Positions 15,936-30,051 of a stretch of DNA of 64,000 bases are shown here, piece after piece. A program made the translations under genes and the position numbers. A model generated the notes under the pieces. It had not been told where the DNA came from. It searched no databases and saw only the letters and a program-made list of their open reading frames with translations. This DNA is from Chloroflexota bacterium (GTDB taxonomy: Bacteria; Chloroflexota; Anaerolineae; Anaerolineales; UBA11579). The first letter of the stretch is position 1, and each line of letters opens with the position of its first letter. The stretch is from NCBI GenBank assembly GCA_016191875.1, contig JACPVG010000006.1, positions 1 through 64,000 on the forward strand. The letters run 5' to 3'.

Positions 15936-16006
15936 ATTTACCCTTTCAGATGCCATGCCCACAACAAGCGAATCACACGCTGGTCGGGAATAGTATAATT
16001 CCCTGG

Positions 16007-18097
16007 ATGGAAACCACCGGGGCGACAGAAGCCTTCTTCCTGAATATCGCACGACGATTCTGGCCCGAGTTGAGTTCGATGAACTTGGCGCGCCGCCTGG
16101 TCGGCGTTGGGGATGTCCTTACCTCGCTGTACGCCACGGTTCTTTCCCTGGCGGGCCTTGGTTGGCTGCTGATTGTTACTGACTGGCCGGTGCTCGTTGC
16201 CAATCTGGGTCAATTCATATTGATCACTGCGCTGATCATTATGTTCACGCAACTCAGCTTCTTCATGATCATTGAATTCAGGCAGGATCGCTACGGAAGC
16301 GCCGATGGCGCCTTCAACAGCATGATGGTCTGGACAGGGGTGTTGCTGTACGGACCTACTGCCCTATGGCCGATTCTTCTTCTGCGCATCGCAGAATTCA
16401 TTTGGATCTGGCGAACCTTGCCAAATGCGGCTACTCGATGGGATAACGTCAGAAATCTGGCACTTACGGTCTCGGGATTTACGTTGCCTTACCTGTTGAG
16501 CCTGAAACTCTATGTTTCACTCGGAGGTCAATTCCCCCTCGCAGTCCTGGATGCCAGGACACTGCTCATTTGCTTGCTAGCAATCTTCGTCAATTTTATT
16601 TTATTCTTCCTAACCTGGATGCCATATCTCCTCTATGCGATTTACACCCAACGCCGGTTGACCCAGGCCTCAGAAACGCGACCCATTCTAGTCTTCTTCG
16701 CCCTGGCCCTTATTCTGCCGACGATGGCACATCCCTTCGCGGTTCTGGCAGCCGGATTGCTGACTCTGCATGGAGTGGCTGTCTTTCTATTCTTTGTCAC
16801 TGGTCTAATCATCGTAGCGTTTCTCGCCCGGCAGTTCAGTTGGATTGCTGAAAGCAACCGTCAACAGAGCCGTCAACTCGAACGTCTTGAACAGCTCGGC
16901 CGGGCCTTGTTGAACGCCCCCGCTGACATATCCGCCCTGCCGGATATTCTCGAGACACACCTGCCGAACATGTTTCCTTCTGGCAATCTGGCGATCTGGT
17001 TAATTCCCGGCCAGGTGATCTACAAATCAACCGCCGAGTGGGAAATGGATTTCCCACCTATCTGGGATTGGACCGGGGAACAGAAGGAGGCGAAGGCATT
17101 TCTCGCTGACGGTCCGCTTCCATGGGCGGTTGAGGGCGAAACCCATCGCCCTGTGGTTGTCTGCCCCATTGTTGCCCATGAAGGCAGCGAGGTCATCGGC
17201 GGCATCTATCTCGAGTTGCGCCGGTTGGCCCAGCCATGGGACATGAAGGCCCTGACAAAGCTGTTCCCCGGTATGCACGCCCTTTCAGACCAAATTGCCT
17301 CTGCGGTTCACCAGGCTGAAGAATACGCCAATTCGCTGGCCCTTCAGAAGGTCGGCCAGGAAATACAGATCGCCGGACAGATTCAGGCGAGTTTCCTGCC
17401 AAACGAATTCCCCAACATTCCCGGCTGGCAGCTTTCAGTTTCGCTGGAGCCTGCAGGTGGCCTGTCTGGAGACTTTTTCGACTTCATCCCACTTTCGCGC
17501 GGGCGCCTGGGTCTGGTAATCGCTGATGTCGCAGACAAAGGCCTGGGCGCCGCCCTGTACATGGCGTTATGCCGAACCCTTATTCGCACCTACGCACTTG
17601 AATATCACTCTCGTCCAGATATCGTTTTCAGCGAGACCAACGAACGGGTAATATCGGATGCCCGCGCGAGCCTTTTCATCACCGCCTTCTATGGAGTGCT
17701 GGACCCGGCCAACGGAACGCTGACCTACTGCAACGCAGGCCATAACCCGCCGATGCTATTTGGGCCTGGTCGAGAAACACCTATCGAGCTGGATCGGACT
17801 GGTATACCCATTGGGATAGAAACAGATGCGAATTGGGCGCGCCAAACGATCGAGTTTCTTCCCGGAGACGTCCTAGTGCTCTACACAGATGGGGTTACCG
17901 AGGCCCAGAATTCCTCGGGAGAGTATTTTTCAGAGGAGGGATTAGTAAGATCAGTTGTAAGTTGTTCCGTAAGCAACGCGTTTGAAATCCAAACCAGCAT
18001 CCTGGCGCACGTTCGCGAATTCATCGCCACGGGCGCTCAATACGATGACATTACGCTAATGGTCCTGTCCCGAGACACTGAAGACGAGAACGAGTAG
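16007..18097 (+). CDS. Membrane-bound SpoIIE/PP2C-type serine phosphatase (RsbU-like)
   Basis: N-terminal multi-TM region, GAF-like middle, C-terminal GDFFDFIPLSRGRLGLVIADVADKGLGAALYMAL ... YCNAGHNPP ... LYTDGVTEAQNS. Confidence 0.9.
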   Translation: METTGATEAFFLNIARRFWPELSSMNLARRLVGVGDVLTSLYATVLSLAGLGWLLIVTDWPVLVANLGQFILITALIIMFTQLSFFMIIEFRQDRYGSADGAFNSMMVWTGVLLYGPTALWPILLLRIAEFIWIWRTLPNAATRWDNVRNLALTVSGFTLPYLLSLKLYVSLGGQFPLAVLDARTLLICLLAIFVNFILFFLTWMPYLLYAIYTQRRLTQASETRPILVFFALALILPTMAHPFAVLAAGLLTLHGVAVFLFFVTGLIIVAFLARQFSWIAESNRQQSRQLERLEQLGRALLNAPADISALPDILETHLPNMFPSGNLAIWLIPGQVIYKSTAEWEMDFPPIWDWTGEQKEAKAFLADGPLPWAVEGETHRPVVVCPIVAHEGSEVIGGIYLELRRLAQPWDMKALTKLFPGMHALSDQIASAVHQAEEYANSLALQKVGQEIQIAGQIQASFLPNEFPNIPGWQLSVSLEPAGGLSGDFFDFIPLSRGRLGLVIADVADKGLGAALYMALCRTLIRTYALEYHSRPDIVFSETNERVISDARASLFITAFYGVLDPANGTLTYCNAGHNPPMLFGPGRETPIELDRTGIPIGIETDANWARQTIEFLPGDVLVLYTDGVTEAQNSSGEYFSEEGLVRSVVSCSVSNAFEIQTSILAHVREFIATGAQYDDITLMVLSRDTEDENE

Positions 18098-18127
18098 CAG
18101 GACAGGCCTGCATTAGCAACACTCCGC

Positions 18128-18544
18128 CTATTGGCTTTTCTTCTGTTTGAACATAGTCAGGCTCGTGCCAGATTTCTCGTCGAACTCAAAATCCACCTCA
18201 TCCATGAGTTTCTTCATCAGGTAGATGCCCGCCCCGCGCGACCCAAGTTCTTCCAGAGGTCCTGATACCTTCGGTTCGGGGACCTTGCCCGGGTCGAAGG
18301 CTTTCCCGTGATCCGTCAGGACAATTTCCAACCCGCTGGCTTTTGGGGTACAGGAACAGGTGATTTCCCCCAACCCCTCGCCGCCGTATCCATGCTCAAT
18401 GATGTTGGTACAGGCTTCATCGACGGCGAGTTGGACGGCATAGACTTCGTCATCATTCAATCCTGCGTCAACAGCCTGCTTCTCAACAAAGTGAGCAATC
18501 GCTGACAAGCTGCTGAAGTGACCTGGAAATACCTGGGTTACCAT
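18128..18544 (-). CDS. Anti-sigma regulatory factor-type Ser/Thr kinase (RsbW-like ATPase)
   Basis: AVDEACTNIIEHGY (N-box), LTDHGKAFDP (G1), GAGIYLMKKLMDEVDFE. Confidence 0.9.
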   Translation of the reverse strand: MVTQVFPGHFSSLSAIAHFVEKQAVDAGLNDDEVYAVQLAVDEACTNIIEHGYGGEGLGEITCSCTPKASGLEIVLTDHGKAFDPGKVPEPKVSGPLEELGSRGAGIYLMKKLMDEVDFEFDEKSGTSLTMFKQKKSQ

Positions 18545-18552
18545 AACTCAGA

Positions 18553-18888
18553 TCAGAAATGTCCCACCGCCGCGACTGTGTCTTCGAAGATCTTAAAATA
18601 GTTGCTCATCCCCACCAGATCCAGGGAGGACAGAATCCGCGCGGGTACATTCGCCAGGACCAACTCACCACGATTGTAGCGGCGGCACGCCTTCTGAGTT
18701 TCAATCAGCACCCACCACCCTTTGCTGGACATGAATTCGACATTGGTCATGTCGAAAACGATCTTATACTGGCCGCTGTCCACCAGCGCCATCAACGACT
18801 TATGAAGATCATCCCCGGTCGCGCTGTCAATTCGGCCATCCATTGCAACGACCTGACAACGCTTGTATGCGGTGGTCGTAATCGCCAT
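18553..18888 (-). CDS. STAS-domain anti-anti-sigma factor (RsbV-like)
   Basis: MDGRIDSATGDDLHKSL and VFDMTNVEFMSSKGWWVLIE. Confidence 0.9.
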   Translation of the reverse strand: MAITTTAYKRCQVVAMDGRIDSATGDDLHKSLMALVDSGQYKIVFDMTNVEFMSSKGWWVLIETQKACRRYNRGELVLANVPARILSSLDLVGMSNYFKIFEDTVAAVGHF

Positions 18889-20382: not shown

Positions 20383-20754
20383 ATGCCAGCGCTTCGATTG
20401 ATTGGATATGTCGTTGCCGGGTTTGCAGTAGTCTTCGGATTCCTGTTCATTCTGGGCGCGTTTAGCCCCGACGGTTCAACCGGCTGGTTGCTCACCGGTT
20501 CCATTCTCACTCTGATAGGCTTAGGAATTATTTGGCTTGTCTCGAGGGGGGCTGCCTCTGCATCAACCACCCACCAGACGAACACTACACTCAAGCTGGA
20601 CCTGCCGGCAGACGTCAATATGGAACGCTTCAAATGCCAGGATTGCGGTGCGCAACTGTCGATGGACAATGTGAAAATGGTGGCTGGCGCACCGATGGTG
20701 GACTGCCCCTATTGCGGCGCGGCCTACCAACTATCGGAGAACCCGAAATGGTGA
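20383..20754 (+). CDS. Small membrane protein with C-terminal zinc ribbon
   Basis: Two hydrophobic segments then CQDCGAQLSMDNVKMVAGAPMVDCPYCGAAY. Confidence 0.8.
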   Translation: MPALRLIGYVVAGFAVVFGFLFILGAFSPDGSTGWLLTGSILTLIGLGIIWLVSRGAASASTTHQTNTTLKLDLPADVNMERFKCQDCGAQLSMDNVKMVAGAPMVDCPYCGAAYQLSENPKW

Positions 20755-22448
20755 GGCCCGCCAAGGCGCTCCGACTCGCTTTCCGAGTTGCCCTTCCGGC
20801 CGTCGTGATGCTGACGCTCCTGCTCCCGCTCCCAGCCGAGCCTGCTGCGGCCCAGACCTATGCTTTTTCGTTGGACAGCGAAACCGTGGATGTCTATTGG
20901 CAGAACAATGGCACCCTTTCACTGGGTTACGAATTTGTGTTTACCAATGCCGCCTATGCCAGCCCGCTGGATTTTGTTGATGTTGGAATGCCCACTTCGG
21001 GAGTAAACCCACCAGACGTGAGCGCAACGATTAATGGTATTGCCATCACCCACATAGCCGACTCTCCCTACGTGACCAACGGCATTGAGCTGGGTCTTGG
21101 AGTCAATGCCATTCGCCCCGGAGATACGGGTGTCGTTCGAGTCCAGGTTTCCGAAATCAACAATGTGCTCTATGTGGACTCTACCGACCCAGACTATGCC
21201 AGTGCGGTGTTCTCCCCTACCTGGTTTGGGAGCGAGTTTGTGTCCGGCTCTACAAACTTTACGGTCACCTTCCATCTGCCGGCCGGGGTGCAGCCAGACG
21301 AGCCTCGCTTCCACCGTGCCCCCTATGGCTGGCCGGAGGAGCCGATTACTGGTTTTGACAACGAAGGAAGGATTACATATACGTGGCAAAACTCGGTCGC
21401 TAATGGCTATACGCAATATCTATTTGGGGCATCGTTCCCGGCCAGACTGGTTCCATCGAGTGCCATCGTTCAGCCATCGCTCTGGCAGCGCCTGGGGATT
21501 GAGCCGGAGGCGCTGATCGGGTTTGGCATCTTCTGTACAGTAGGTCTGTTTATTTTCGGCATCCCGGTGATCGCAATCAGCGGAGAGCGCCGAAGAAAAA
21601 TGAAGTACCTCCCCCCCAGAATCGCCGTTCAGGGCCACGGCATCAAGCGCGGCCTGACCGCCATCGAAGCGGCAATTCTTCTAGAGCAGCCGATGGATCG
21701 CATACTGGCGATGATCCTGTTCGCTACCCTCAAGAAGAGTGCGGCGGCCGTCATGACAGAAAAGCCACTAAGGCTTGAGGTCGCGGCCCCTTTGCCTCCC
21801 GACTTGCGGCCCTACGAGACCGACTTCCTGGATGCCATGAAGGAAACCAACACCGCCAAGCGACGCAAATTGCTGCAGGAAGCGATGATCAGACTGATAA
21901 GGAGCGTGGCGCAGAAGATGAAAGGCTTCAGCCATCGTGAGACCGTCTCCTACTACAAGGACATTATGGAGCGCGCCTGGCAGGAAGTCGAAGCCGCAAA
22001 GACCCCAGAAATGCTATCCGAGACTTATGACAAGGTCATGGAATGGACCATGTTGGATAAAGAGTACGAGGATCGAAGTCGGGACGTTTTTCAAAACCGG
22101 CCAATCTATGCCCCACACTGGTACGGGCGATATAACCCGACCTACGGCTCGCGCCCATCGGGTACATCGGCAAAGTCTGGCGCTCCTGCCTCACGCCCGA
22201 CTCCTGGCGGAGTTGGACTGCCGCACCTCCCGGGTTCAGATTTTGCCGCCTCAATTGTCAACGGAGTCCAGAATTTTTCCGCCGGCGTCATCGGCAATCT
22301 TTCAGACTTCACTGGCGGCGTCACAAAAACCACCAATCCGCCGCCAGTCACTTCGACCTCCAGCTACAGGAGCAGTGGCGGTAGCGGATGCGCATGTGCC
22401 TGCGCCTGTGCTGGCTGCGCGTGCGCATGCGCCGGAGGAGGCCGATAA
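20748..22448 (+). CDS. Secreted/membrane protein (signal, ectodomain, TM, cytoplasmic helical domain) with Cys-Ala repeat tail
   Basis: Start at MVRPAKALRLAFRVALPAVVMLTLLLPLPAEPAAAQ, overlapping the upstream TGA; C-terminus SGGSGCACACACAGCACACAGGGR*. Upstream extension in the track ORF is not supported. Confidence 0.85.
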   Translation: MVRPAKALRLAFRVALPAVVMLTLLLPLPAEPAAAQTYAFSLDSETVDVYWQNNGTLSLGYEFVFTNAAYASPLDFVDVGMPTSGVNPPDVSATINGIAITHIADSPYVTNGIELGLGVNAIRPGDTGVVRVQVSEINNVLYVDSTDPDYASAVFSPTWFGSEFVSGSTNFTVTFHLPAGVQPDEPRFHRAPYGWPEEPITGFDNEGRITYTWQNSVANGYTQYLFGASFPARLVPSSAIVQPSLWQRLGIEPEALIGFGIFCTVGLFIFGIPVIAISGERRRKMKYLPPRIAVQGHGIKRGLTAIEAAILLEQPMDRILAMILFATLKKSAAAVMTEKPLRLEVAAPLPPDLRPYETDFLDAMKETNTAKRRKLLQEAMIRLIRSVAQKMKGFSHRETVSYYKDIMERAWQEVEAAKTPEMLSETYDKVMEWTMLDKEYEDRSRDVFQNRPIYAPHWYGRYNPTYGSRPSGTSAKSGAPASRPTPGGVGLPHLPGSDFAASIVNGVQNFSAGVIGNLSDFTGGVTKTTNPPPVTSTSSYRSSGGSGCACACACAGCACACAGGGR

Positions 22449-23662
22449 TGCTAGAGCGGGTGAGAGAACTGTTTGCGAGGCCTGCGCCAGCCCTACCTCT
22501 GCCACCGGGGGTGTATCATTATCAGGCTCCAGCCAACGACCCTGAAAACTACCGGATGCATCTTCGCATCGAAGCGGATGGCTCAGGATTTCTGCTGCTG
22601 AACGCGGCGACCGTCCTGCACCTGAACCAGACCGCGGCCGAGTACGCATACTTGTATGTCAAGCAAGCAGATGTGGACGAAGCGGCAGCCCACATCACCC
22701 AGCGATACCATGGGGTTCGCCGGGATGATGCCGCCGAACAATACGCGCAGTTCAAAGATCAGATCCACACTCTGCTGACTTCCCAGGATCTCGACCCCAT
22801 GATGCTTATTGGCTGCGACAGGGAATCCTTGTACGCAGGCGAACCATCCGCGCCATACCGTCTGGACTGTGCGCTGACATATGCCACACCCGGGTCCGCA
22901 GACCCCACCGTGGCCCCGATTCAGCGCGCCAACACCGAGCTGTCAACCCACCAATGGATCACCGTGCTGGACAAAGCCTGGCAGAACGGGATTCCGCATG
23001 TGATTTTCACAGGCGGAGAACCCACGCTGCGCAACGATCTGCCGGAGTTGATAGCCCACGCTGAACGGAACGGCCAGGTCACCGGGTTGCTCACCAGTGG
23101 GCACCGACTCAGCGAGTCGGGTTATCTCAAAGCGCTGCTCACCGCCGGCCTTGATCACACGTTGATCACGCTCACCGGCGAGCACCTCGACGCCTGGGGG
23201 GCCATATCCTCATTCACCTATTGGAAAGATTTGCTCAAGGAAGACATTTCTGTCGCCGCCCACATTACAATCAGCAACCAGAACTTCGGCGATGTCATCC
23301 AACTGTTCGATCGAATCGCTGAAGCCGGCATTTCTTCAATCTCCCTGACTGCGAACTCGGCGTCGTTGACACAGCTGCTTGAGCAAGCGCGTGAAGAAGC
23401 CGGCAGACGCGGCCTTGACCTGATATGGGACTTGCCCGTCCCCTACTCGGCCATGAACCCGGTGGCATTGGAGCTGGCCCAGGACGCCGAAGAGCGACAG
23501 ATCCCGGGCGCGGGGAAAGCCTGGCTGTATGTTGAGCCGGATGGCGATGTCCTGCCGTCTCAGGGAATTGATCATCCGCTGGGAAACATGCTGACGGCGA
23601 GCTGGGACGAAATCTGGGGGGAGGCCAGACGGTACCAGGAGCAATACTTGCGGCCAAAATAG
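22448..23662 (+). CDS. Radical SAM/SPASM-like protein lacking cluster cysteines, with PqqD-like N-terminal domain
   Basis: ATG overlaps upstream TAA (TAATG); PqqD-like GSGFLLLNAATVLHLNQTAAEYAYLY; IPHVIFTGGEPTLRNDLPELI; WLYVEPDGDVLPSQGIDHPLGNMLTASWDEIW. Only two Cys in the protein and no CxxxCxxC. Confidence 0.82.
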   Translation: MLERVRELFARPAPALPLPPGVYHYQAPANDPENYRMHLRIEADGSGFLLLNAATVLHLNQTAAEYAYLYVKQADVDEAAAHITQRYHGVRRDDAAEQYAQFKDQIHTLLTSQDLDPMMLIGCDRESLYAGEPSAPYRLDCALTYATPGSADPTVAPIQRANTELSTHQWITVLDKAWQNGIPHVIFTGGEPTLRNDLPELIAHAERNGQVTGLLTSGHRLSESGYLKALLTAGLDHTLITLTGEHLDAWGAISSFTYWKDLLKEDISVAAHITISNQNFGDVIQLFDRIAEAGISSISLTANSASLTQLLEQAREEAGRRGLDLIWDLPVPYSAMNPVALELAQDAEERQIPGAGKAWLYVEPDGDVLPSQGIDHPLGNMLTASWDEIWGEARRYQEQYLRPK

Positions 23663-23826
23663 TGCTGGCCACCCACGAACATCAAGCCCTCCTTATATTG
23701 GCACAGTTTATGCATCTCCGAGGATGTTGCGCGCTTGTAACCCAATCAAGTGGCGCGTTCCCTGACCCTCTTGTATAGTTGTTCGTGGCGCGAAGTACGC
23801 CGGGATGATGCCAAATGGAGTGGAAG

Positions 23827-24825
23827 ATGTCCCAGAAGAAACTAGTTGCAGTTTTGCTCCTCGCCACACTTGCTGTGCTTCTGGCAGGCTGTGGGGCGCT
23901 GGCCCAGCGATTCGCCGGGGCCAATGACACTCCCGGAGTCACAGAAGATGCTGAGATTCAGCCCGAGGTGTCCCTGGAACCTGGTGAAGGGATTGGCGGG
24001 GGAGCGCTTGAACCCGCCGATATTGGAACAGCCATTCAGCAGACGCTTGACGCCGCGTTGACTGAAGGGGCTGCGTCGGAAGACTCTGCTCCGGAGGCGA
24101 CCGACACGCCGGTGCCTCCTTCCGCAACCGAACCCCAGCCGACCAGCACGTCGGCAGCCTCACCTACAATCCCTGGCGCCCAGTTCACGCAGCTCTATCA
24201 GACGCTGACAGCAATCGCCGCGTCTTCAACCCCCACGTCGACTGAAGAGGTTGGCCCCGCCGATGAGTCAACGGATTCTCCGGCGAACGACGCTTCCTCC
24301 ACACCATTGACGACGCCGTCCTCCGGCGCGTCGCCCACGGCCACCCCGAACCTCACCCAACAGGCTATCGCCGCTAGGCCCTGCCTGGCCTTGCGCTTTA
24401 TCGCTGACGTGACCATTCCAGATGGGACTCCTGTTCAGCCCAGCAGCACATTTTTCAAATCCTGGTATGTACAAAACGTTGGCAGCTGCCGATGGAAACC
24501 AGAGTTCAAACTGATTTTCCATTCCGGCGCGGCGCTCGGCGCGCGATCGGAATATGAACTGGGAACTTTTGTGAACCCAGATCAATATGTGACCTTGAGC
24601 GCTCAGATGCAGGCGCCGGCAACGGGTGGCTACTATACGAGCTTCTGGGGTCTCGCGGACGAAAATGGCCTGTTCTTCGGCTGGAGCGCTGACGACGGCC
24701 AGACATTCGACCAGCCATTCTACGTGCTGATATACGTATTGGGCAGCTCCTCGGGAGCCTTAGGGCCGGGAATCGGCCAGCCGGGCGTTGTCTCCACGGC
24801 GCCACCCTATACGCCTGTGCCGTGA
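23827..24825 (+). CDS. Lipoprotein with NBR1-like Ig domain
   Basis: MSQKKLVAVLLLATLAVLLAGCG lipobox; FFKSWYVQNVGSCRWKPEFKLIFHSG...MQAPATGGYYTSFWGLADENG. Confidence 0.85.
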   Translation: MSQKKLVAVLLLATLAVLLAGCGALAQRFAGANDTPGVTEDAEIQPEVSLEPGEGIGGGALEPADIGTAIQQTLDAALTEGAASEDSAPEATDTPVPPSATEPQPTSTSAASPTIPGAQFTQLYQTLTAIAASSTPTSTEEVGPADESTDSPANDASSTPLTTPSSGASPTATPNLTQQAIAARPCLALRFIADVTIPDGTPVQPSSTFFKSWYVQNVGSCRWKPEFKLIFHSGAALGARSEYELGTFVNPDQYVTLSAQMQAPATGGYYTSFWGLADENGLFFGWSADDGQTFDQPFYVLIYVLGSSSGALGPGIGQPGVVSTAPPYTPVP

Positions 24826-26383: not shown

Positions 26384-27553
26384 CTAGCGTTCTGGAGCAC
26401 CTGCTTCGATCCAGTCACGCAGCGCGTTCAGTTGGTCGGGGCTCAGCCTTCCGGGATGTTCCTGGCGCTGGGGCCAGATTACCGCCAGACTGATTCCGGA
26501 TGCGTTCGGAACGACCGCCAGACCAGAATCCCCGCCTGCCAGCGCCCCCGAATAGGTCAGCAGATCCAGATTGCCCGGACTGCCCTGCCCCTGATGGCAT
26601 AGCCCGCAGCTCGCGGCGAACATGTCTCCAATTCCGTTTTCCCAGGTCGTGCCAATTTTCTCTGCGTCAAAGCGGGCGGCCGCCAGAGTCGGAAATGGGG
26701 TTGGTGTCAACGGAGTAAAACCGCTCGCCCGCCCCAGGTCCGGGATGACGGATGGCTGGGCGACCGCGGTTTGCTCAACGCTTACGAACCACACAACTCC
26801 CAGCACCAGTAAAAACGCCGCACCGCCGTAGCCATAGGCGAACTTTCTGCGGCGCGCCAGATATTCCTCATCGGTTGTTTCGATTGTCGGAGCTACATAA
26901 TCCTGATTTTCCAGGGCCAGCGGATGCTCTTCAGCCATTTCATGGGCACTCAGATATCCTGTGAACATACTCTTGTTCTGATGTTTGATAAGCACATGAT
27001 AGAAATGCCATAGGATGATCGAAAGCACGGCCAGAAGGGCTTCGCCCCCGTGAGCCGCCTTGGCTGCCGGGATCCACTCCCCCGACAAAAATTGCGTTGC
27101 CGTGATCGGGTTCCACAGGAAGAATCCGGTTAGCACCATCACGAAGGTACCCCAGATCAGTGCCCAATACTCAAACTTCTCTTCGAATGTGAAGAGACCC
27201 TGGCGTGGTTTTTCCTTTGAGATGCCCAGGTTGAATCGTACTTGTTCCCAGGCGTTGCGCGCGTCGCTAAGCTCCGGGAGGATGTGTGGGCTCCCGCGCT
27301 CCACGTACCAGTAGTAGATCAGCGTTCCAAAGTGATAGATGGTTAGCAAAACAAGAACTACCGCTGCTACGCGATGAAGGATGCGGGCCACCTCCAGCCC
27401 GCCCATCAACCACAGCAGCCACTCTGAAACGCGAAACTGGCTGAACTTCTGGGGTATCCCTGTGGCAGTCAGGACGGCGAACGAGCCCACCAGCGTCCAA
27501 TGCTCAATCCGCCGAGTCTGGGAAAAGCGCAGGTAGCTTTGTTGCTCAGGCAT
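26384..27553 (-). CDS. Cytochrome b561/FdhI-like membrane cytochrome with C-terminal c-type heme domain
   Basis: RIEHWTLVGSFAVLTATGIPQ, multiple TM with His, C-terminal FAASCGLCHQGQG (CXXCH). Confidence 0.87.
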   Translation of the reverse strand: MPEQQSYLRFSQTRRIEHWTLVGSFAVLTATGIPQKFSQFRVSEWLLWLMGGLEVARILHRVAAVVLVLLTIYHFGTLIYYWYVERGSPHILPELSDARNAWEQVRFNLGISKEKPRQGLFTFEEKFEYWALIWGTFVMVLTGFFLWNPITATQFLSGEWIPAAKAAHGGEALLAVLSIILWHFYHVLIKHQNKSMFTGYLSAHEMAEEHPLALENQDYVAPTIETTDEEYLARRRKFAYGYGGAAFLLVLGVVWFVSVEQTAVAQPSVIPDLGRASGFTPLTPTPFPTLAAARFDAEKIGTTWENGIGDMFAASCGLCHQGQGSPGNLDLLTYSGALAGGDSGLAVVPNASGISLAVIWPQRQEHPGRLSPDQLNALRDWIEAGAPER

Positions 27554-28739
27554 GGTTCTTTCCTTGGCCGCGGCCTTCGCGCCGCTGCCGCAGAATGTCT
27601 GTGACAATAAAGAACCCCATTCCAGTCAGCGTTCCCGGAATGAAGAGTTTGTAGAACAGGTCTACCAGGTATACAACGGCGTAATGCTCTAGATCGGGCG
27701 GATAGTGTCCAAGCCAGGCGTCGGAGAAATTCGGGGTGGCATCAACATGGCAGCGCTGGCAGGTCCCCAGCAGGTTCTGCTTAATCACATTACTGTTCTC
27801 GTCGGTAGGCTTGCGGATGTCGTGAACCCCGTGGCAGTCAACACAAACTGGCTTATTGGTTTGCTGGTCAGGGGCAATCCGCTCAAAGATTGAAACGGTG
27901 GTGCCGTGAAAGTCCGAGATATAAGTATCGAACACCTGAGTATTGACTCCGTACTTCGCCATTAGGGATTCATCCGCATGGCACCGAGCGCAAATATCGG
28001 GAGAGAAGAGATGGAAGGACGGGTCGGTTGGCCCGCGCGTGCCGTGGTAGTCGTGGCAATCGATGCACGAAGGGACATCCGCGTTGAAGTCGTTCAGTAG
28101 CGCATCCCCATGGACGCTCTCTTTGTAGACGTCAAAAATTTGTGAGTGACAACCCTCACAGGTTTTGGCTATCTTTGTCCTGGAGGCGCCGAGTTCATTC
28201 AGGGCATGTGGGTTGTGACAATCGGAGCAAATCGCAGCCTCGAGATTCCCCCCGGCAACACTTTCGGCATGCCGGCCACCGGCATATTGTTCCTGGGCAC
28301 CGGCATGGCAGTTCTGGCAGACCCCAACCATGCTGACCCGAAGCTCCCTTGAGGTACCGGCGCTGGCCTGCGGATGCGGGTAGCCGCTGATGTCAAGGTG
28401 ACACTGCACGCAGGCATAGCCTCGCCGTCCATGAGACGACGCCCCAAAGAGGATGGGGTCGATGGTCAGGTAGAGCGCGTCATCGTCCGAAAACGGGAGC
28501 ACCATCCCCGGCTGGGCGTGGCAGTCCAGGCATTCCCGGTTTCCCATCAATACGGCCGATGGGTTCGGTGGAGGGTCGCCTTGGGCCGCTTCCCGGGCGC
28601 TGGCGATGCCCACAGCCGCCAGCGCGATCGCAAGGACCACCAGGCCAAGAAACCAACCTGCCGGCTTCCCAAACCATGCCCATTGGCGACGCTCCGACAA
28701 GTTCATCACAACTCGAGAAAGGTGATCCATATCGGCCAT
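27546..28739 (-). CDS. Nonaheme c-type cytochrome with N- and C-terminal hydrophobic segments
   Basis: Nine CXXCH motifs: CLDCH, CVQCH, CQNCH, CSDCH, CEGCH, CIDCH, CARCH, CVDCH, CQRCH. Confidence 0.93.
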   Translation of the reverse strand: MADMDHLSRVVMNLSERRQWAWFGKPAGWFLGLVVLAIALAAVGIASAREAAQGDPPPNPSAVLMGNRECLDCHAQPGMVLPFSDDDALYLTIDPILFGASSHGRRGYACVQCHLDISGYPHPQASAGTSRELRVSMVGVCQNCHAGAQEQYAGGRHAESVAGGNLEAAICSDCHNPHALNELGASRTKIAKTCEGCHSQIFDVYKESVHGDALLNDFNADVPSCIDCHDYHGTRGPTDPSFHLFSPDICARCHADESLMAKYGVNTQVFDTYISDFHGTTVSIFERIAPDQQTNKPVCVDCHGVHDIRKPTDENSNVIKQNLLGTCQRCHVDATPNFSDAWLGHYPPDLEHYAVVYLVDLFYKLFIPGTLTGMGFFIVTDILRQRREGRGQGKNHA

Positions 28740-28758
28740 GAATAGCTAGGGACAAATA

Positions 28759-29985
28759 TCAGTCGCCATCGCCGTCAGCGGAATCGTGATAGCCGTTGGC
28801 CACTTCTGCCAACTGGTTAACGGGCAGCTCGGTCACGATCTCTCCATTGTGGCAGGAACCACAGACATACTCCAGCGTCAGATAGGGCATAACGGTGTCA
28901 CCATCCGGGCTGAACTGGGGAGCCTGCGGATCGACATTTATTGAGAAGAGGTGAGAGCTGATATCTCCCCGGTGTTGGTCCAGGTCGCCCGCCGCCGACA
29001 ACCCAATGGGGGCCATGTGGCAGGCCAAGCACGAAACAAATCCCGGCGCGTGCTTGCTGACTTTCCGCTCAGTCTGCTGCCAATGGCAGCCGGTGCAAGC
29101 GACATTTAACCCCTGCTCCGGATTGACCTCCGCATCCTGGTAAACAGAACTCGCATGCGGGTCATGGCAAGTAACGCAGCTTAGCGCGAAATGCTTGGAG
29201 TTCAGGAGCTCGGTGTACTGTTGCTCGCTGACTTCGAAACCATCAGCTGCGGCGATATCCTGGCCCTTGCTGCTCGCATGGCACGCTCCACAGGCCTGAG
29301 ATGAACGGTCGAGCACCATCTGGTAGCCATATGGGTTGCCGGCGTGCAGGCTGCCGGGCCCGTGACAGGCCTCGCACTGAACGCCCGGAAATTCCCAAGT
29401 GCCAAGGATTCCTTCCAATCCATCCTGATGTCCTTGCGGCCGGTATCCGGTCGAGTGGCAGGAGCCGCAGTCGTAAATCTTCTGTTCACCCGCATGAAGC
29501 GCCGTCCAGTCCTTGGGCGTTTCTAGTAGTTCGTTTGCATAGACGTATTGGGTTTGCGAGTCTGCTTCACCGGTGATCAAATAGCCATCCAAATCAAGGA
29601 AATTCGCCTTCCAACCGTACCCGCCCACAACGTAACTTATGTCCTCCCAAGAGTATCCGTCGGGGGGATTGGGCAAGCCGCCCGTGAATCTGTCGTAGGG
29701 AAAGACCGGAGGCCTTCCATTGCTGACCGGGGTAAGCTGGTAAGGATGGCCGGATAGGGCGAACTTCTGATACTCCTCCACGTGGCACTGGCTGCATCGA
29801 GTGCTGCCCACGTAGGTCTGGGCGGCGGAAGCGCTCTCCCCGGGTGGCCCCACCGGCCCAATTGGCCCCGGCGGCCCCTGCGGCCCCACCAGAGCCTGCT
29901 CGGAAGACCGTGCGCCGCACGCGGACAGGAACAACCCTGCCATCGCCAGAAAGACGTATCGGCTTAATGCAGGTTTCGGATTCAT
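28759..29985 (-). CDS. Octaheme c-type cytochrome lipoprotein with collagen-like linker
   Basis: Lipobox LFLSACG; GPQGPPGPIGPVGPPGES; eight CXXCH motifs: CSQCH, CGSCH, CEACH, CGACH, CVTCH, CTGCH, CLACH, CGSCH. Confidence 0.92.
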   Translation of the reverse strand: MNPKPALSRYVFLAMAGLFLSACGARSSEQALVGPQGPPGPIGPVGPPGESASAAQTYVGSTRCSQCHVEEYQKFALSGHPYQLTPVSNGRPPVFPYDRFTGGLPNPPDGYSWEDISYVVGGYGWKANFLDLDGYLITGEADSQTQYVYANELLETPKDWTALHAGEQKIYDCGSCHSTGYRPQGHQDGLEGILGTWEFPGVQCEACHGPGSLHAGNPYGYQMVLDRSSQACGACHASSKGQDIAAADGFEVSEQQYTELLNSKHFALSCVTCHDPHASSVYQDAEVNPEQGLNVACTGCHWQQTERKVSKHAPGFVSCLACHMAPIGLSAAGDLDQHRGDISSHLFSINVDPQAPQFSPDGDTVMPYLTLEYVCGSCHNGEIVTELPVNQLAEVANGYHDSADGDGD

Positions 29986-30051
29986 CTTCACTCCTCCGGT
30001 ATTCACGCACATTATAAGGAGACCTGATAGGATTATTTTACAACAGCCCGG

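Follow-up and report, generated by a model that had tools for sequence, protein, structure and literature searches.

Gene organization

The window analyzed here, a 64,000-nucleotide stretch of a Chloroflexota genome, carries three forward-strand open reading frames (ORFs) whose ends overlap: gene 1 (20383 to 20754), gene 2 (20748 to 22448; 566 amino acids [aa]), and gene 3 (22448 to 23662; 404 aa). Both overlaps described in an earlier, sequence-only reading of the locus are present, ATGGTGA at 20748 to 20754 between genes 1 and 2 and TAATG at 22446 to 22450 between genes 2 and 3. That reading took gene 1 for a membrane zinc-ribbon protein, and we agree: the protein has two predicted membrane helices and a C-terminal CxxC...CxxC ribbon, with zinc-ribbon profiles scoring under their cut-offs. 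In most relatives' operons a gene 1 homolog ending in PKW lies upstream of the gene for the tailed protein described below, and in the Lachnospiraceae tail protein a zinc ribbon is fused in. A single protein there, encoded at L098:1973-3451 and at comparable loci of that family, unites the ectodomain, the membrane helix, the ribbon, and the tail.

The gene 2 product starts with a signal peptide and a beta-sandwich ectodomain. A single strong membrane helix follows, and beyond it lie a helical domain on the cytoplasmic side, a low-complexity linker, and a Cys-Ala tail. The ectodomain (20865 to 21440, +; residues 40 to 231) is modeled with pLDDT values mostly >90, and its predicted fold is similar to that of beta domains in OST1/ribophorin I and in M1 aminopeptidases. 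Hydropathy and the model place the membrane helix region at 21504 to 21605 (+; residues 253 to 286), followed by positive charges of the type ERRRKMK, and the C terminus is predicted to lie in the cytoplasm. The last 20 residues (22386 to 22445, +) are the tail, GCACACACAGCACACAGGGR. The AlphaFold model of gene 2 (mean pLDDT, 84) is confident except in the linker and the tail (tail pLDDT, ∼35), and hydropathy, model, and sequence together bear out the topology and tail first read from the letters alone. No Pfam or NCBIfam family covers the protein, and its profile matched nothing among PDB sequences; an NCBIfam aminoglycoside-kinase match was dismissed as noise (20 of 325 bits).

Several neighbors in the window were also annotated. 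An NBR1-type Ig domain (PF16158) is carried by the lipoprotein-like protein encoded directly downstream of gene 3 (23815 to 24825, +). A SpoIIE-type phosphatase adjoins anti-sigma kinase-like and STAS-like proteins, the latter two judged by eye, in an apparent partner-switching regulator at 15950 to 18888, and a cytochrome b561-type membrane protein lies near a multiheme c-type cytochrome at 26384 to 30012 (−).

Conservation of the tail

The tail GCACACACAGCACACAGGGR is kept in 51 of 51 readable Chloroflexota homologs of gene 2, whereas the remaining protein is only ∼30 to 60% identical. Because these loci were gathered via gene 3, independently of the tail, the count answers a question that the sequence-only reading had set as a test, namely, whether the tail is conserved in orthologs. 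Two further ORFs without a tail are the front halves of frame-broken copies, with the tail on the second half. Among 81 distinct proteins ending in GCACACAGGGR, synonymous codons vary freely at every position; this set was partly selected by its tail, so the evidence that it offers is the spread of codons and not the identity of residues. The alanines and the final GGGR are as invariant as the cysteines. A DNA pattern for the tail occurred once in each of 30 of 399 Chloroflexota genomes and never when read backwards. The Cys-Ala tail is far from chance.

Gene 3 is a cysteine-stripped relative of radical-SAM enzymes

Gene 3 matched the radical SAM family PF04055 at 38.0 bits, over the Pfam cut-off of 29.5, and fell just short of PqqD (PF05402; 20.0 bits, cut-off 23.4) and SPASM (PF13186; 18.6 bits, cut-off 21.5), both of which intact homologs clear (SPASM at 38.0 bits in L050; PqqD at 30.5 bits in an intact homolog). 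Its model (pLDDT, 85; pTM, 0.87) comprises a winged helix resembling an RRE, a barrel, and what is left of a SPASM domain. Compared with the PDB, the best fold match was SkfB, and SkfB, PqqE, and SuiB were the closest solved structures. The proposed architecture of a PqqD/RRE-like domain plus radical SAM plus SPASM, which had been offered for checking by HMM search, has one profile match above and two just below cut-off, and the modeled fold resembles it. A putative PqqD/RRE-like winged-helix domain spans 22505 to 22780 (+; residues 20 to 111), as judged from the subthreshold PqqD match and the winged-helix-like segment of the model.

The site that would hold the SAM cluster is degenerate. In an alignment of 59 gene 3 relatives with 105 intact homologs, the CX3CX2C positions of gene 3 (22886 to 22912, +; residues 147 to 155) are T, A, and T, and the three cluster cysteines are kept in 3, 0, and 0% of the 59 relatives. 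The SPASM cysteines tested (376, 394, and 444) are retained in 0% of them, and N223, Q245, S250, and N286, otherwise invariant, are replaced; the GGE motif is kept in 100%. The earlier description of gene 3 as cysteine-less needs amending in that the protein has two cysteines in total, neither of them in a cluster motif. With CX3CX2C, the SPASM cysteines, and other invariant residues lost across the whole clade, gene 3 is incapable of radical-SAM chemistry, and we discarded it as the catalyst. As judged from its sequence, gene 3 is a conserved pseudoenzyme, a cysteine-stripped paralog of an intact enzyme.

A second group of pseudo-radical-SAM partners (L144:3677-5041, L089:2314-3612, L093:1717-3081, and L175:1797-3356) was seen in Planctomycetota, Armatimonadota, and some Chloroflexota, and its members keep SPASM-type cysteines. 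It falls apart from the gene 3 clade in a free tree, but a single origin is compatible with the data (AU test, P = 0.154), and we therefore do not claim two independent origins. L150 and L199 are intact enzymes, though missed by the motif search.

Intact enzymes accompany the tail

One intact relative of gene 3 is encoded in the same genome, outside the window (G000:C28:196917-198650, also L052:7918-9651). It contains the motif CNNGCPHCYN and a SPASM domain, and its C-terminal region is extended by a Cys-rich stretch. The next gene encodes M2, a membrane protein paralogous to gene 2 that has the same cytoplasmic domain but no tail. The extension, GGGGCSGCSGSCGTGG, is rich in Cys, Gly, and Ser and is followed by a long conserved end; an extension of this kind is also present in L037, L038, L041, and L089 and may be a self-substrate or a cluster site. 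In most other Chloroflexota families, the operon runs gene 1, tail gene, intact enzyme, gene 3; in the window's own family, the tail gene has no intact enzyme beside it. Among PDB sequences the best match to the enzyme family is SkfB, and its closest solved relatives (SkfB, PqqE, and SuiB) all modify peptides.

Across 399 Chloroflexota genomes, the tail pattern occurred in 30 and the enzyme clade (membership at 480 bits or more) in 29, and all 29 coincide (P = 2.8e−43); related genomes are not independent, so this P value overstates the case, but the 399 genomes hold no counterexample. The tail without an enzyme, in genome G278, was set aside as a chance DNA match with no ORF. In a set of 194 genomes from the class to which Gemmiger belongs, three carry the tail, and these also give the top three enzyme matches (3/3). 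Co-occurrence of the tail with this protein family, another test proposed at the outset, therefore holds in both sets, although such a pattern does not in itself make the tail a substrate.

We then consider distribution at large. A DNA pattern for CACACAGGG, searched in one genome for each of 85,462 species, matched at least 117 stretches; of those listed, 109 fall within an ORF whose translation contains the tail, which in 108 of these 109 is near the C terminus. Carriers among the matches listed include bacteria (Anaerolineae, Lachnospiraceae, Oscillospiraceae, Zixibacteria, Aminicenantes, Acidobacteriota, Armatimonadota, Planctomycetota, and Coatesbacteria) and archaea (the Asgard groups Heimdall-, Hod-, and Sigynarchaeota, as well as Methanomassiliicoccales and Bathyarchaeota), many of them metagenome-assembled genomes, so that single placements may be binning errors. 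A complete operon is found in Ornatilinea apprima P3M-1, and tail and enzyme are found in Gemmiger formicilis ATCC 27749. This spread of tail and enzyme family over many phyla removes the possibility of a species-specific curiosity. In Lachnospiraceae the tail runs on as a conserved AGCSxKDFYxT, a segment absent from Chloroflexota.

Among the matches listed, 41 loci from many phyla had >1.5 kb on both sides, and in 39 of them an enzyme of the family is encoded on the same strand, mostly abutting the tail gene; L171 and L173, which have good flanks, showed no enzyme within the available stretch. The tail proteins are homologous outside the tail (99.5% in profile comparison for the Firmicutes set), and over 72 pairs the distances between tail proteins follow those between enzymes (r = 0.875), a correlation due in part to shared descent. 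The suggestion that the tail is a client or substrate of gene 3 survives in altered form: the tail is tied to the enzyme family, but its partner is the intact paralog, gene 3 being noncatalytic.

A second tail form accompanies weaker relatives of the enzyme (∼290 to 365 bits), which adjoin homologous membrane proteins (99.7% in profile comparison) with a (CHSA)n repeat. Such a tail lies beside the weaker enzyme at five of five Clostridia and two of three Chloroflexota loci inspected; at the third, no tail ORF was recovered. The (CHSA/CHDA)n-tailed proteins are L227:5064-6764, L228:1969-3675, L229:2042-3742, L230:5536-7230, L231:2407-4137, L213:6090-7808, and L217:4049-5794. Two forms of Cys repeat, both on members of one membrane protein family, are thus followed by a single enzyme family, and no other indirect argument speaks as strongly for the repeat as the substrate. 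The Clostridia (CHSA)n loci also have, after the enzyme, a third gene of ∼330 aa with a conserved SGYHT segment (e.g., L227:2745-3737).

Proposed function of the tail

On the strength of these comparisons, we lean somewhat toward the view that genes 1 to 3 belong to a system, spread over many phyla, whose dedicated radical-SAM/SPASM enzyme works on a membrane protein's Cys-Ala tail on the cytoplasmic side. That the tail is a client of the intact enzyme is quite probable; thioethers as the specific product are a tentative suggestion. Gene 2 would be inserted with its C terminus inside, leaving the tail in the reducing cytoplasm, and gene 2 would be held by the RRE domain of the enzyme together with that of gene 3. 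The intact enzyme would take hydrogens off tail residues and join Cys sulfurs there, most likely as Cys-to-Ala carbon thioethers, and a floppy repeat would become a rigid cross-linked element. Gene 3, without catalysis, could serve as a substrate-presenting or activating subunit, like PqqD for PqqE, and the catalyst in this genome would be the G000:C28:196917-198650 paralog outside the operon. We prefer thioethers because the solved relatives modify peptides, because Ala and Gly vary no more than Cys does, and because of the chemistry of SkfB, which makes Cys-to-C-alpha thioethers and tolerates Ala as the acceptor (PMC8326336). No leader-type recognition sequence was identified.

The alternating cysteines, typical of thiolate metal sites, could instead mean that the tail is a metal, iron-sulfur, or heme site that the radical-SAM family protein assembles, loads, or redox-couples. 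The zinc-ribbon protein in the operon, fused in Lachnospiraceae, would fit such a metal-handling complex, but the invariance of Ala and of the final GGGR goes beyond the needs of metal binding alone and the closest solved enzymes modify peptides; we consider a metal site unlikely, though worth keeping in mind. Improbable, in our estimate, is that the enzyme alters alternate residues in some other way, e.g., by epimerizing Ala to D-Ala so that the tail adopts a regular D/L fold. Radical-SAM epimerases can act two residues apart (PMC8326336), which would suit the two-residue periodicity of the tail, and gene 3 has fold matches to EpeE; yet those matches are weaker than the ones to SkfB, PqqE, and SuiB, the (CHSA)n relatives have a four-residue period, and the conservation of Cys at every second position would be left unexplained.

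It is quite improbable that the tail stays unmodified as a docking or anchoring peptide and that the enzyme and gene 3 have another target: a noncatalytic gene 3 would agree with this, but two different Cys-repeat tails on one family of membrane proteins go with the enzyme family, and the tail residues are near-invariant. Almost certainly wrong is the notion of an ordinary low-complexity C terminus with no link to the enzyme, for which the Gly-rich tail on a DUF2207 protein from a relative (L236) could be cited. The Cys-Ala tail is invariant across phyla, its codons are free, and it is tied to one enzyme clade, so conservation and co-occurrence already contradict that notion.

Returning to enzymatic modification of the tail, we see about even chances that dedicated radical-SAM/SPASM enzymes cross-link (CA)n and (CHSA)n tails in place, at the cytoplasmic end of one membrane protein family, as an unnamed modification class of bacteria and archaea. 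The product would never be released, and in some lineages, this one among them, an enzyme copy stripped of its cysteines would have been fixed as a noncatalytic subunit. Modification of the tail, if it takes place, would carry radical-SAM peptide chemistry past secreted natural products and cofactors and give a permanent, chemically unusual element to membrane proteins in gut Clostridia, Anaerolineae, methanogens, and Asgard archaea. The short, near-invariant candidate substrate motif and an enzyme family with both CA and CHSA tails could be used for specificity studies; the pseudo-radical-SAM partner would have a testable role, and the tail would offer a first way into a widespread family of membrane proteins.

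Comparison with known systems

The pairing of tail and enzyme may be unrecorded. Neither Pfam nor NCBIfam has a family for it, and we found no paper on the tail string, on Cys-Ala repeats with radical SAM, on a SPASM pseudoenzyme, or on DUF2207 with radical SAM in a search that mostly did not cover subscription journals and preprints and is therefore weak evidence.

DUF2207 proteins (PF09972) share the layout of gene 2, with a signal peptide, an ectodomain, a membrane helix, a cytoplasmic part, and a low-complexity tail, but the DUF2207 tail seen (L236) is Gly-rich and not Cys-Ala. Firmicutes tail proteins show a weak likeness to DUF2207 (E = 0.005; hhalign, 90.8%). Gene 2 was rejected as a member: it has no PF09972 match and reaches 63.9% in hhalign against a single DUF2207 sequence, 1 of 41 gene 2 homologs reaches E < 0.01, and the genome itself has no DUF2207 match.

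Among radical-SAM families, the ACGX system (TIGR04340) has a SPASM enzyme that, going by the family name, was presumably named for a system with Cys-containing repeats; the intact enzyme scores 56 to 72 bits against it (cut-off, 400). A precedent for labeling a radical-SAM-like protein as pseudo is the pseudo-SAM/SPASM protein TIGR04347, against which gene 3 scores 49.1 bits (cut-off, 525). PqqE is a close profile match of both the intact enzyme and gene 3, and an RRE domain plays a part with PqqE as well, but the scores are 73 to 122 bits (cut-off, 381), a PqqA-like peptide is missing, and the tail here is rich in cysteine.

The locus had also been called RiPP-like. In favor, an RRE/radical-SAM/SPASM enzyme is encoded with its likely substrate at 39 of 41 loci among the matches listed, the two being unlinked in the window's genome; against, there is no short precursor with leader and core, the tail belonging to a 566-aa membrane protein. 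The system would operate much as RRE-SPASM RiPP systems do, but without a short released peptide it is best filed as a variant of them, not a member. The domain order of the intact enzyme, RRE plus radical SAM plus twitch/SPASM, is that of SkfB, CteB, and related sacti- and ranthipeptide synthases, which likewise have a Cys-rich neighbor as the likely substrate. In those systems the substrate is a short peptide of leader and core, which undergoes cleavage and export, whereas here it would be the C-terminal tail of a membrane protein of ∼560 aa, accompanied by a pseudo-radical-SAM partner.
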